A DNA stretch of 64,000 nt from the NCBI GenBank assembly GCA_016281605.1, contig JAEEJA010000027.1, forward strand, positions 151,123 through 215,122, given 5' to 3'. The position numbers and the translations under genes are program-made. This document shows, in pieces, positions 688 to 6,366 of this stretch; position 1 is the stretch's first letter; each line of letters starts with the position of its first letter. This DNA is from Lachnospiraceae bacterium (lineage in GTDB: Bacteria > Bacillota > Clostridia > Lachnospirales > Lachnospiraceae). A model generated the notes under the pieces. It searched no databases and had not been told where the DNA came from. It was given only the letters and a program-made list of their open reading frames with translations.

Positions 688-1272
688 ATGACAAAAAACA
701 ACAATGAAACTTACGATGAAAGATATTCAGTAGTGGATAAAGCCATAAAAGACGCTTTTCTCCTTCTTGCAAAAGAAAAGGATATAGAGAAAATATCAGT
801 TTCTGATATCATCAAAAAAACCGGTATTGTTAGATCTACCTTCTATAATCATTATGAAAATGTATCGGATCTTATTACAGCTTTAGAAGAAGAAACCATA
901 AATGATACGCTAAAGTTTATAAAAAGCCAAAAACTAGATAAAGATAAGGATATATGTGAAGCATATTTTCTAACCATATGTTGTTATACAAAGAAAAATC
1001 CATTTTTTTCCAGACTCATCCAGTGTAAGAGGGGTGATGTGTACATGAATAAAGCAATTAATATTCTTCATGATTTTGTATTTTTACTATCTGAAGATAA
1101 AAAGAATAAAAACAACAATAAACAATACAGCTTTATAGTTGCAGGTGCTATCGGATTTACTCTGGGTATACTCCATAAGTGGATTTCAGACGGATTTGAT
1201 GCTTCTGAAGAGTATGTAGCCAATCTTTTGTCAAGTATTTTCCTTGAAAGCATATTGCCATACATGAATTAG
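688..1272 (+). CDS. TetR/AcrR family transcriptional regulator
   Basis: 194 aa; N-terminal HTH with typical TetR pattern (AIKDAFLLLAKEKDIEKISVSDIIKKTGIVRSTFYNHYENVSDLI). Confidence 0.9.
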   Translation: MTKNNNETYDERYSVVDKAIKDAFLLLAKEKDIEKISVSDIIKKTGIVRSTFYNHYENVSDLITALEEETINDTLKFIKSQKLDKDKDICEAYFLTICCYTKKNPFFSRLIQCKRGDVYMNKAINILHDFVFLLSEDKKNKNNNKQYSFIVAGAIGFTLGILHKWISDGFDASEEYVANLLSSIFLESILPYMN

Positions 1273-1318: not shown

Positions 1319-2872
1319 TTACTCTATAGGCTCGTCTATAAGCACTTCCTGTCTCTTTATCTTTCTTGTGGAGTTCTTTATAAACGGATATTTCCTAATA
1401 TAAAGACCTGTTATCTGTCTGTAGGTTGGCTGCTTTTTATTATATTCATCTATACACTCTCTTAATTTACTTTCTATCTCAGTATCTGACATCTGAAGTC
1501 TTTCAGCTGCTTCCTTATCAGGATAGATTCTTGCCATAAGACCATTATCCTCACCTGTGATAACTACCTCTCCTACAAGCGGATTAAGTGCAAGCTTTCC
1601 TTCTATTTCCTCAGGTGAAACATTTTCTCCGTTTGATAATATAATAAGATTCTTTACACGTCCGTTTATGAAGAGGAAACCGTCTTCATCTAAGTACCCC
1701 TTATCTCCGGTATGTAACCATCCATCTACTATTGTTTCATTAGTCTCAGAAGGCATTTTGTAGTATTCTCTCATGACAGATGTACTTTTTACAAGAATCT
1801 CACCAATTTCTGAGATTTTTATTTTTACATTAGGTAATGGTCTTCCTATAGAACCCACTTTATGATCTTCAATACTGTTTGAACTTATTACAGGTGCACA
1901 TTCTGACATACCATAACCCTCAAGTATAAGTACTCCGTAGTCTTCAAATTCCTTGATGTAATATGGATCTAAGTGAGCTCCACCTGTAAAAACAACCTTA
2001 AGATTGCCACCTAAAACCTTTTCCTTAAGCACTTCCTTAGGAGTTGTTTCACTGGCTACAGCAAGTCGCTTATAGATAGTCTCAATCATAAGCGGAACCA
2101 TAAGCATAACCTTTGGCTTAAATATTCCTATATTCTTTATCATATGAAGCAGTGAATCATTTATACATAAGGTTGAACCTATAGAAAATCCCTTAAACCA
2201 ATCCATAACGAGACAAAATGCATGATGTATGGGAAGTACACTTAATACAGTATGCTGTGATTCAGCATTAAAACCTACTGCTTCAACATTTTCTGCCAGG
2301 TTATAATGAGTAATAACAACACCCTTACTCTTTCCTGTTGTACCTGAAGTAAATATAATCATCGCAGTATCATTTGCCTTAGGTGCATTGCTTTCGATAT
2401 TAACATCATCTCCCTTTATAAGCTCATTTAAAGGTCTTACAATATCGTCAGCTTCTTCTATGTCATCCTCAGTAAGAATCCATATCTTCTCAATAGCAGG
2501 GCAGTTTTTCTTGATTTCATCTATATAACCCTTTAATTTTACTCCTATAAATACTCCTACTGAATCAGAGCGATTTAAAAGCTCAATAAGATCTTCTAAA
2601 GGGAGTCCTGCGTCCAAAGGCACTGCTACATTGTTTCCGGTAACAATCGCATAATATGATTCAATCCATTCTATAGAGTTCTGACCTATTAAAGCAAAAT
2701 GTTTTTTTTCATAACCCATCTCAGTAATACTGTTACGAATCTTTCTTATATAAGCTATGGTATCAGTATAATTTCTCTCCATAATCTCTTTCTTTTTTAA
2801 CCATTTTACTGCTATAGTGTCACTGAATTTTTTTTGACTGTCATCTAATATTTCTCTTATTAATTTACTCAT
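1319..2872 (-). CDS. AMP-binding acyl/aryl ligase (acyl-CoA synthetase / acyl-AMP ligase family)
   Basis: 517 aa; P-loop-like core IIFTSGTTGKSKGV, GYGMSEC, GWLHTGDKG, C-terminal NSTRKIKR lysine motif. Confidence 0.9.
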   Translation of the reverse strand: MSKLIREILDDSQKKFSDTIAVKWLKKKEIMERNYTDTIAYIRKIRNSITEMGYEKKHFALIGQNSIEWIESYYAIVTGNNVAVPLDAGLPLEDLIELLNRSDSVGVFIGVKLKGYIDEIKKNCPAIEKIWILTEDDIEEADDIVRPLNELIKGDDVNIESNAPKANDTAMIIFTSGTTGKSKGVVITHYNLAENVEAVGFNAESQHTVLSVLPIHHAFCLVMDWFKGFSIGSTLCINDSLLHMIKNIGIFKPKVMLMVPLMIETIYKRLAVASETTPKEVLKEKVLGGNLKVVFTGGAHLDPYYIKEFEDYGVLILEGYGMSECAPVISSNSIEDHKVGSIGRPLPNVKIKISEIGEILVKSTSVMREYYKMPSETNETIVDGWLHTGDKGYLDEDGFLFINGRVKNLIILSNGENVSPEEIEGKLALNPLVGEVVITGEDNGLMARIYPDKEAAERLQMSDTEIESKLRECIDEYNKKQPTYRQITGLYIRKYPFIKNSTRKIKRQEVLIDEPIE

Positions 2873-2966
2873 TCTCCATCTTATATAATTATGGTATTGT
2901 TTTTAATCCATAATCATACTTTCCTTTCTGAATTATAAATGATTCTAATATAATAAAACATTTCTT

Positions 2967-3200
2967 TTATTCGCCTTCTGTCAAATTCTTCATAATTTCA
3001 AGAGCGTCTGCCACTGTGAATACGGTTGCAGCATTCTCTTCTTCGAACTCAACATCAAATTCATCTTCTAATTCACCAAGAAGAGACATAAAATCAAGGG
3101 ATGTAAGTCCTAAATCCTCTCTGAATTTCTTGTCATCTGTTATTTCCTCAACAGGTACCTTTGCATACTGTGCGATAATTTCCTTAAATTTCTGTTCCAT
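2967..3200 (-). CDS. Acyl/peptidyl carrier protein
   Basis: 77 aa acidic protein with phosphopantetheine-site motif DLGLTSLDFMSLL. Confidence 0.92.
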   Translation of the reverse strand: MEQKFKEIIAQYAKVPVEEITDDKKFREDLGLTSLDFMSLLGELEDEFDVEFEEENAATVFTVADALEIMKNLTEGE

Positions 3201-3227
3201 TTTCTTAATCTCCTTTTATTATTATTT

Positions 3228-3255
3228 AGTCAAGACTCGCTTGCGAGTCTTGACT
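3228..3255. repeat. 12-bp perfect inverted repeat between carrier-protein and condensation genes
   Basis: AGTCAAGACTCG-CTTG-CGAGTCTTGACT; T-run follows on the + strand only, while the flanking genes are on the minus strand. Confidence 0.7.
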
Positions 3256-3262
3256 TTTTTTA

Positions 3263-4645
3263 TTATACGGTCTCCATGATTTCGCCTATTGTTTTATCAG
3301 GCTCATCGACACCGGTAAATATTATTCTCATTAAGTAGTAATATAATAATTCCATATCATGTTCATCATATACAGCTGTCTGATAATGGAATGAAAAGTT
3401 CATACCACCTTTTGCGTGAGAAACCGTTAAGTACATTTTTTTTGTTGCAGCACCGTTAGCAAACCACTTTGCATGAACATTAATGTTCTTAAGCTTTGGA
3501 TTACTTACCTTAACAGGCATTGGCTGATAAGTCAGATAACAGCTTTCATAAGCTGTATTATCAGGTGTTTTGTAACGCTTCTTCATTTCATCTCGTATAA
3601 AAGCAGGATCATAATTACTGTGAAGATAGGTTTTATTCTGCATATTCTGTATTTCATAAGCGGCTGTCAAAAAGTCTGTATCCGGTGTAATTATGGTTCT
3701 GCAGGGGAACATTATCGTTCTGCTGCCGCCTGATGTCCATTCATCCTGAGTTGATCGTCTGGATATGAAGTTTTGTATAGTTATATCTTCCTGACCATTA
3801 TTTACCTTTGATAAATATGTCCTTATGCCTAAAAGTAACAGATTTGTCATAGATATCTGATGAGTCATACAAAAATCTATAAGTCTTTGAGTTGGCTCTG
3901 GTTCAAGTAAATAGTCTTTCACTGTAACAAACAAGTCATCCATTACTATATCTGCAGAACGTAGTTTTTTATTCTTATGTTTTTTTCTGGCTTCTTCTAA
4001 AACAGAAGGTCCTTTTATATCAGAGTAAAGTGGTTCTCCCCAATTATCCAACATGTCATCCCAGAATTTTTTATCTTTTGCAAATCTTTTTTCGTTGGTT
4101 GCCTTTTTTATATCCTTCATAAGTACTTCTTCATAATCCGCAAGAGGATCCGGATAATCTCCTTTGTATCTATAATGAATATAAAGACTTATGATATCTG
4201 ATATCATAACTACAAGTGCACAGGAATCAACCAATCTATGATCCATATGAACAAAAAAACCGTTATATCCTTCTGGTAGCTTAACCATGATAAATTCACA
4301 CATTGGGATATCATCACCATCAAATGTGTTATATGCCCATGTCTGCATCAAATCATCTGCTTCCTTTAAAGTCATACCTGTTAAATCCTTTAAAGGAATA
4401 TCTCCTCTCTTTCTATCTATCAGATATTGCTTAACCTGACCATCTTTATCCGGCTTCGTAAACTGAAGTCTTAAGCATCCATATCTTTGATACTCTTCCT
4501 GGATACATTTTTTCATCAAACCAAAGTCCATCTCAATCTGTAACGAAGCAACAACGCTTACTCCTGAAACCTGTTGAGTCTTATAATTCATAATCCAGTC
4601 ATGATGCATCCTTTGAGCCGCTGTAAGTGGATATAACTTTTGCAT
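3263..4645 (-). CDS. Stand-alone condensation-domain / chloramphenicol-acetyltransferase-like acyltransferase protein
   Basis: 460 aa; HxxxD motif in FVHMDHRLVDSCALVVMISDIISLY; size and N-terminal YPLTAAQRMHHDWIM resemble NRPS condensation-like proteins. Confidence 0.75.
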   Translation of the reverse strand: MQKLYPLTAAQRMHHDWIMNYKTQQVSGVSVVASLQIEMDFGLMKKCIQEEYQRYGCLRLQFTKPDKDGQVKQYLIDRKRGDIPLKDLTGMTLKEADDLMQTWAYNTFDGDDIPMCEFIMVKLPEGYNGFFVHMDHRLVDSCALVVMISDIISLYIHYRYKGDYPDPLADYEEVLMKDIKKATNEKRFAKDKKFWDDMLDNWGEPLYSDIKGPSVLEEARKKHKNKKLRSADIVMDDLFVTVKDYLLEPEPTQRLIDFCMTHQISMTNLLLLGIRTYLSKVNNGQEDITIQNFISRRSTQDEWTSGGSRTIMFPCRTIITPDTDFLTAAYEIQNMQNKTYLHSNYDPAFIRDEMKKRYKTPDNTAYESCYLTYQPMPVKVSNPKLKNINVHAKWFANGAATKKMYLTVSHAKGGMNFSFHYQTAVYDEHDMELLYYYLMRIIFTGVDEPDKTIGEIMETV

Positions 4646-4831
4646 AGTTTCTTTTTCTTCCTTTCATTTTTTATTTCGTGAAAAAAAATACCATAAAAAA
4701 AACAAAAAGAAAACCCCCTTTTCCACTTAATGAACACTTATGTATAAATTGTCTTATAATTCTTGATAATAATATTAAAGACTAACTTTCTTTCTGGATT
4801 TCCTTGAAACGCGCTCTACAAGGCACCCAAT

Positions 4832-4865
4832 AAAAAAAGATCTTTGAAAAAATCCAAAGATCTTT
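4832..4865 (-). terminator. Rho-independent terminator after the C39-like gene
   Basis: Perfect 11-bp stem AAAGATCTTTG/CAAAGATCTTT, with T-run TTTTTTTATT on minus strand. Confidence 0.8.
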
Positions 4866-4896: not shown

Positions 4897-6366
4897 TTAT
4901 TCTGTAGCTTCAAGCAAGAAGTACATTCTTGATTTTAGCGACCCGGATAAGAATCTTTTTCCTCTTATCCAGCATCCAAATGGATTTGTTTTTCTTATAT
5001 AAGTTGCATAAGGATCTAATACAAGGTACTTACCGTTACTAAAATCCGCAACAGCTATGTAATGATTAGGAACATTGGCAACTGCCGTACCACCATTTAT
5101 AAGATGCTTTTTTACTTCCGAAAGAGAATAGGTGTATTTAACAAATCTATATCCATAATCTCCACCAAACTTATCAGCACAGGCCTTTACAAAATGATAA
5201 TCTGTACCTTGTCCTTCCACACGATATCCACTCTTTACTGCATAATCTGCAACCATCATCGGATCCATAAACTGTCCGTTAAGGGCATAAACTGCATTAA
5301 CAGAAGATAATACCCCACAAGCTGAGCCGGCCATAGTGTTATATTTACCATAGAGATTAGCTCCCCATGCTGAATCATATTGAGAAAAGACATGCCAGTA
5401 TTTAAGATTCTTTCCTCCATACATAACTATTCTATACCTTTGATTTGCTGTATTATCTTTATTATCAACTAAGAAATTCTTATTAAAGCAAAAATATTTA
5501 TTATTATACTTATTCTTTAAATAATAATATCCTTCACTTCTTTCAAGTATCCAAAGCTGTGAATCGTTATATGCATTGTTTTCAACTGCGCTTAAAAGAA
5601 TTTTATTATTATATATTTCTCCTTCAGGTGTCAAGCCTATGCAAAGCTGAGTAGTATTATTCTTTATAACATAGGTTCCATCCCCTAAAAAATCAATAAA
5701 AAATACATCATTAGCGCTTATACCTTCGGCTTTATTCTTAAAAGTAAGGGTATTACTCTCTCCTAACGAAAGCAGCATACTATTATCAGCACTTGTTAGA
5801 GTATAAGTTCCTTCTGACATTATCTTTTTCTCTGCTCCGTCAAAAATCCTTATACATCTTAAATATTCCTTTTTCTTGAGCCATGAAATCCAATAATTCT
5901 CATTATATTTATAAAGAAGTTGAAACCATTTTCCTCTTTTTCCTATAACATCTACATCTGTATAATCCGGAATTGTTCCTACGCTTAATCCTTTTGGACG
6001 AGTGTAAGCCATTGCATCATAACGTAGCATCCCATCAATTTTTTCAAATCCGGGATTTGATAGTATTATTGACTTCTCAATCCAACCACTGTAAGTCTCA
6101 CCATCTATCTGATATCTGCAATGATATGAATTATTTTCTCTTGATGTTATAACAAGCTTAATATCCTTATCGTTTACATGATTAATCTTAGTAGAAAGTG
6201 CTGAATCCATATATATATCAAATCCACTTGGTGCAACCGTATATGTATTTACATTGATTTCATCCGATAGAATCTCAATTTCAGCCGCATATACACCTTT
6301 CTTAAATAAAATCATAAAAGAAAGAATAAATAAAAAGCTAATTAACTTTAATATATGTTTTTTCAC
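4897..6366 (-). CDS. Secreted SH3-like / ricin-B-like / C39-type cysteine peptidase protein
   Basis: 489 aa, signal peptide; central QLWILERSEGYYYLKNKYNNKYF (ricin/beta-trefoil-like) and C-terminal SACGVLSSVNAVYAL...NHYIAVADF...YLVLDPY (C39-like Cys/His/Asp). GTG start overlaps deoB stop. Confidence 0.7.
   Translation of the reverse strand: MKKHILKLISFLFILSFMILFKKGVYAAEIEILSDEINVNTYTVAPSGFDIYMDSALSTKINHVNDKDIKLVITSRENNSYHCRYQIDGETYSGWIEKSIILSNPGFEKIDGMLRYDAMAYTRPKGLSVGTIPDYTDVDVIGKRGKWFQLLYKYNENYWISWLKKKEYLRCIRIFDGAEKKIMSEGTYTLTSADNSMLLSLGESNTLTFKNKAEGISANDVFFIDFLGDGTYVIKNNTTQLCIGLTPEGEIYNNKILLSAVENNAYNDSQLWILERSEGYYYLKNKYNNKYFCFNKNFLVDNKDNTANQRYRIVMYGGKNLKYWHVFSQYDSAWGANLYGKYNTMAGSACGVLSSVNAVYALNGQFMDPMMVADYAVKSGYRVEGQGTDYHFVKACADKFGGDYGYRFVKYTYSLSEVKKHLINGGTAVANVPNHYIAVADFSNGKYLVLDPYATYIRKTNPFGCWIRGKRFLSGSLKSRMYFLLEATE

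Follow-up and report, generated by a model that had tools for sequence, protein, structure and literature searches.

Described fatty acid amide operons

GPR119 is one of the host receptors on which bacterial fatty acid amides (FAA) act, and recent work links these compounds to GLP-1 release and body weight (PMC13060934). In Coprococcus eutactus, oleoyl aminovaleric acid is the product of three separate proteins: OaaA is the ligase that charges the carrier OaaACP with fatty acids, and the free-standing condensation protein OaaC couples the carrier-held chains to aminovaleric acid or GABA (PMC13142362). A crystal structure (12KH) and an in vitro reconstitution are available for OaaC, which by itself formed no product from oleoyl-CoA (PMC13142362); it is described as a homodimer that is opened by the holo- or acyl-carrier. 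The C_FAA class of condensation proteins is characterized by the motif (D/H)HxxxD(S/A/G), in which the second His and the Asp are conserved (PMC13142362). Blautia species with a three-gene CTA operon, as well as a Coprococcus catus isolate with it, produce more acyl ethanolamines than operon-less relatives; Blautia wexlerae fed oleic acid and dopamine makes oleoyl dopamine, and amines rescue this bacterium from fatty acid toxicity (PMC13060934). Chang et al. 2021 (Nat Microbiol 6:792) is named in PMC13142362 as the origin of the FAA system and is the source of the CTA query proteins in PMC13060934. As described in these two papers, the FAA clusters of gut Clostridia in that study resemble the locus described below in consisting of three free-standing proteins, which join exogenous fatty acids to amines.

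A condensation-carrier-ligase operon in a Lachnospiraceae genome

The window analyzed here is a stretch of 64,000 nucleotides on a 215-kb contig of a Lachnospiraceae genome assembly (2.72 Mb in 103 contigs, with 90% completeness and 3% contamination). A preliminary description of the window reported three consecutive minus-strand genes for a ligase, a carrier protein and a condensation protein, with a TetR-type gene convergent to them, and the open reading frames and Pfam domains agree with this description in both positions and motifs. The first gene of the operon (3263..4645, minus strand) encodes a stand-alone condensation protein of the C_FAA/OaaC type (460 aa; Pfam Condensation, E 8e-32) with the motif DHRLVDS (D135-H136...D140-S141). 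It is followed by the gene for a free-standing acyl carrier protein of 77 aa (2967..3200, minus strand; PP-binding, E 6e-13), in which Ser34, within DLGLTSLDFM, is the attachment residue, and by the gene for a stand-alone adenylate-forming ligase of 517 aa (1319..2872, minus strand; AMP-binding, E 4e-59) with the motif SGTTGKSKG. All three Pfam matches exceed the cut-off by a wide margin. Three free-standing proteins encoded together in the order condensation-carrier-ligase, with the carrier in the middle, are the arrangement by which FAA/CTA operons are recognized. The carrier matched NCBIfam acyl carrier protein models, in each case below the cut-off, and the ligase most closely resembled acyl-CoA ligases, under all NCBIfam cut-offs shown; the ligase is predicted to charge the carrier with fatty acids. 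The TetR-type gene (688..1272, plus strand; TetR_C_8 of Pfam, E 3e-7) contains an HTH with GIVRSTFYNHYEN and weakly resembles the DhaS activator, under the model cut-off.

The gap between the condensation and carrier genes contains a perfect 12-bp hairpin (3228..3255), the only one of its kind in the window, the sequence of which is not kept in relatives. We rejected it as a terminator splitting the operon because it is not followed by a U-run when read along the operon and has no conserved counterpart in relatives; it is perhaps an element of mRNA processing or stability. A terminator-like hairpin (4836..4865, minus strand) follows the upstream gene 4897-6366 and might mark the operon boundary, a weak suggestion given that two terminator-like hairpins were found where 1.7 are expected by chance. 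The product of the co-directional gene 4897-6366, which immediately precedes the operon, looks secreted and has a ricin-B-type lectin domain (PF14200) and a C-terminus that, judged by eye, is C39-like peptidase.

The condensation protein groups with OaaC and its Blautia counterpart among stand-alone relatives

When a profile built from the condensation protein and 30 relatives was compared with PDB chains, by far the best match was 12KH (691 bits, E 4.5e-207, the next chain reaching 58 bits), which is OaaC of C. eutactus, entered as 'condensation domain protein'. The two proteins are 51% identical over 459 positions, so that the acceptor preference may differ; they share the stand-alone architecture, the (D/H)HxxxDS motif, the separate carrier and ligase and the fold family. 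Identity to the B. wexlerae counterpart is considerably higher, 75.5% over 462 positions, which places the protein above the threshold of at least 70% identity over 80% of the length used in the CTA search of PMC13060934. The carrier is 53% identical to that of B. wexlerae and the ligase 63.5%, below the same 70% cut-off, in a comparison with one reference and against a number that is a search threshold rather than a property of the system. The B. wexlerae operon (locus L028) further shares with ours the gene order, a convergent TetR-type gene and the upstream element discussed below; it differs in having an upstream alpha/beta hydrolase gene (L028:8757-9743), none of which was found in our source genome.

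The DHRLVDS sequence matches the C_FAA class motif, and H136 and D140 are invariant among 31 aligned sequences. The structure predicted by AF2 (mean pLDDT 90.6, pTM 0.88) shows the two-lobed condensation fold, as the preliminary description had anticipated from the HRLVD motif, and its top Foldseek matches are condensation domains, namely 5DUA, 4JN3 and the starter domain RzmA (E 1e-27 to 1e-23; the database extended to 8 April 2026, and 12KH was not among the matches listed). Starter (lipo-initiating) C domains of NRPSs such as RzmA have in common with our protein an acyl donor and the condensation fold, but they reside within large multidomain proteins, use a carrier-bound amino acid as acceptor and are only about 15% identical.

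Maximum-likelihood analysis of 55 condensation proteins, all of them stand-alone relatives, placed the protein within a clade of 37 rows that includes B. wexlerae (support 99/99) and joins OaaC in a larger clade (100/96). Within the 37-row clade no supported sister of our protein was recovered, nor any supported grouping with relatives from its own genus. Nonsynonymous divergence of the condensation gene from four relatives is low (dN 0.16-0.18), with dS saturated so that the dN/dS of the window's gene is a bound; for relatives that are closer to one another, the pairwise ratio is about 0.04. The gene is thus under strong purifying selection and is maintained.

Distribution and gene neighborhood

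A matching condensation gene (E <= 1e-30) was detected in 55 of the 397 Lachnospiraceae genomes sampled, representing 48 of 334 genera, and several named relatives are rumen MAGs. The view that trios of this kind are few and mostly uncharacterized does not agree with this spread through the family, nor with the biochemical (12KH, PMC13142362) and physiological (B. wexlerae, PMC13060934) study of two of them. We term close the 39 loci whose condensation protein shares 60% or more identity with the window's; 37 of them have both the carrier and the ligase gene, and the other two end at contig edges. This co-occurrence, together with the purifying selection, shows that the trio is not a chance arrangement, and the co-occurrence supports the shared pathway that had been proposed for its three parts. 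A TetR-type gene is found within 6 kb in 32 of the 39 close loci, and in 21 of the 22 that have ample flanks. The recognition helix of its product, GIVRSTFYNHYEN or close to it, is nearly constant among the sequences compared across loci.

In 43 of 56 loci across the family, the condensation gene has a further neighbor no more than 3 kb away, in upstream, divergent or downstream position, that encodes an alpha/beta hydrolase (Hydrolase_4; about 320 aa) whose N-terminus is hydrophobic. By profile, its relatives are cinnamoyl and other esterases and monoglyceride lipases, and the protein might supply fatty acids, edit misloaded carrier or recycle the product. The hydrolase gene is absent from the window's locus and had no match in the source genome searched; with the genome 90% complete, the absence is certain for the locus and likely for the genome. 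In at least one relative from the same genus (L045) the gene is divergent from the condensation gene, and in another (L048) its start lies at a contig edge. The word 'hydrolase' appears in neither PMC13142362 nor PMC13060934.

A more distant group of operons (condensation proteins 34-40% identical to the window's) has a different TetR-type gene and an extra gene for an SCP2-type lipid carrier, which is located upstream of a hydrolase-C-T-A array (L049:10262-10591; also L051, L052, L093, L096, L097 and L100). The hydrolase with its hydrophobic N-terminus, or in this second group the SCP2-type carrier, gives many related trios lipid surroundings, as might be expected if the condensation protein acylated a membrane lipid or a cell wall amine, yielding an acylated envelope or lipid component of the kind considered in the preliminary description. 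We regard such a product as improbable and found no direct support for it: neither accessory gene is present at the window's locus, the source genome yielded no hydrolase, and free small amines are the reported acceptors of both close and more distant homologs (PMC13142362, PMC13060934). An acylated small molecule, the other kind of product that had been envisaged, is likely.

A conserved element upstream of the operon and its candidate regulator

An operator-like element of about 31 bp (4724..4754, minus strand) precedes the condensation gene by about 79-109 nt and matches the consensus GGTCAATTT-N6-AARTGTTYRTTAAGTC at 22 of the 25 scored positions. In the 220 nt ahead of the condensation gene, scores of at least 18 of 25 were reached by 29 of 32 loci, against 32 of 6400 dinucleotide shuffles, a comparison that overstates the significance because the motif was derived from the scored sequences themselves and the loci are related. 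An independent check on the motif is its uniqueness genome-wide: nine genomes contain one or two sites each (allowing up to 2 mismatches), the operon copy being the sole site in the source genome, and the window has this single match where 0.01 are expected. The element persists across genera in which the upstream sequence has otherwise diverged, and many loci have a second, more perfectly palindromic copy, TATCAAACACTT-N7-AAGTGTTYGATA, about 35 nt further upstream. Where the hydrolase and condensation genes share a strand, the element is located between them and thus appears to serve the three-gene operon.

Judging from sequence and gene position, the TetR-type protein is the natural candidate to bind this element and probably controls the operon through it. 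The element might instead be occupied by another regulator, such as one governing fatty acid synthesis, with the TetR-type neighbor acting elsewhere. In line with this possibility, the region upstream of the TetR gene yielded no clear copy of the element, which leaves autoregulation through the element unsupported as well, and loci L089 and L090 keep the TetR gene with no recognizable element. We nevertheless consider a different regulator rather unlikely, since the element occurs once or nearly so per genome, unlike the sites of a global regulator, and the TetR gene stays beside the operon in most close loci. This alternative concerns regulation only and is compatible with a fatty acid amide function of the enzymes. 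Neither PMC13142362 nor PMC13060934 describes the regulator gene or the upstream control-like site, and TetR is not mentioned in the former; a literature search found no papers addressing either the control of such operons by TetR proteins or N-acyl amides in the rumen. The companion regulator gene and the conserved element offer concrete handles on operon control.

Predicted function of the operon

The locus is very probably a fatty acid amide (CTA) operon. Its gene content, conservation, motif, fold and unique upstream element are observed, and the profile match to OaaC, the identity to B. wexlerae proteins, the DHxxxDS motif, the placement in the tree, the condensation fold, the recurrence of the trio in 37 of 39 loci, the element and the presence of two PPTase-type genes in the genome (one within a 236-aa open frame) all point in this direction. 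Some features fit less well, namely the ligase identity below the published cut-off with the one reference compared, the placement of the condensation protein with no supported sister, and the lack of a PF00282-type amino acid decarboxylase, none of which was found in the source genome; the amines would then probably come from the surroundings.

By homology with the described systems, from which both the chemistry and the fatty acid detoxification role are taken, the carrier would be activated beforehand by the product of one of the two PPTase-type genes, and the ligase would use ATP to adenylate a free, probably exogenous, fatty acid and load it onto the carrier at Ser34. The condensation protein would then catalyze the attack of a small, freely diffusing amine on the acyl thioester, which moves the acyl group off the carrier and onto the amine nitrogen. 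Direct release of the N-acyl amine in this manner would make a thioesterase or a second module unnecessary. The TetR-type neighbor would control the operon through the element just upstream of the condensation gene. The likeliest benefit to the cell would be the defusing of toxic free fatty acids, as proposed for B. wexlerae, with effects on an animal host being secondary. The outline of the preliminary interpretation, that is, one pathway, a condensation fold and an acylated small molecule, is thereby retained, in contrast to the rarity, the uncharacterized status and the envelope option.

Contig C44 of the source genome also encodes an A-T-C fusion protein (1005 aa; L055:10569-15253), directly followed by a carboxylesterase gene (PF00135). 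The fused protein has a 68% relative in one genome of the same genus and weaker relatives elsewhere, and the pair may constitute a second small acyl-conjugating system. The existence of this protein and the adjacent carboxylesterase could suggest that the trio provides a starter unit, its acyl group being handed to an NRPS elsewhere in the genome. Such a hand-over appears highly improbable, given that the fused gene is unlinked to the trio and occurs in few relatives (8 of 61 genomes), that the trio is widespread without it, and that C_FAA proteins operate with no acceptor carrier partner (PMC13142362).

The predicted fatty acid amide function places the trio, as far as its sequence indicates, in a system already known from the gut bacteria B. 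wexlerae and C. eutactus, as an ordinary, real and functional-looking member. To that system our analysis adds a modest amount of new information: the frequent hydrolase neighbor, the kept TetR-type gene, the upstream element and the spread of the condensation gene through Lachnospiraceae. More tentatively, these observations might be read jointly as a dedicated local stress response, in which the TetR-type protein would sense a free fatty acid or the acyl-carrier and switch the operon through the element, with a detoxification role in the rumen and with the hydrolase and the SCP2-type protein supplying or trafficking the fatty acid. Were this the case, rumen members of the family (Butyrivibrio, Pseudobutyrivibrio and relatives) would have a second way, beside biohydrogenation, to disarm toxic fatty acids, and the two accessory proteins would gain a place in the supply or traffic of the substrate.

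Other related loci

Several further loci were noticed in the course of this survey. In an Alistipes (Bacteroidota) metagenome assembly, a short contig bears an operon of the Lachnospiraceae type (L023), most likely through a binning error. Related stand-alone condensation genes with no carrier or ligase gene within 6 kb were found in L092, L094 and L095 and form a clade of their own (100/100). A distant trio (L098:7757-11717), the condensation protein of which is 27-29% identical to the window's, has the order C-A-T and is directly followed by its own phosphopantetheinyl transferase gene (PF01648).
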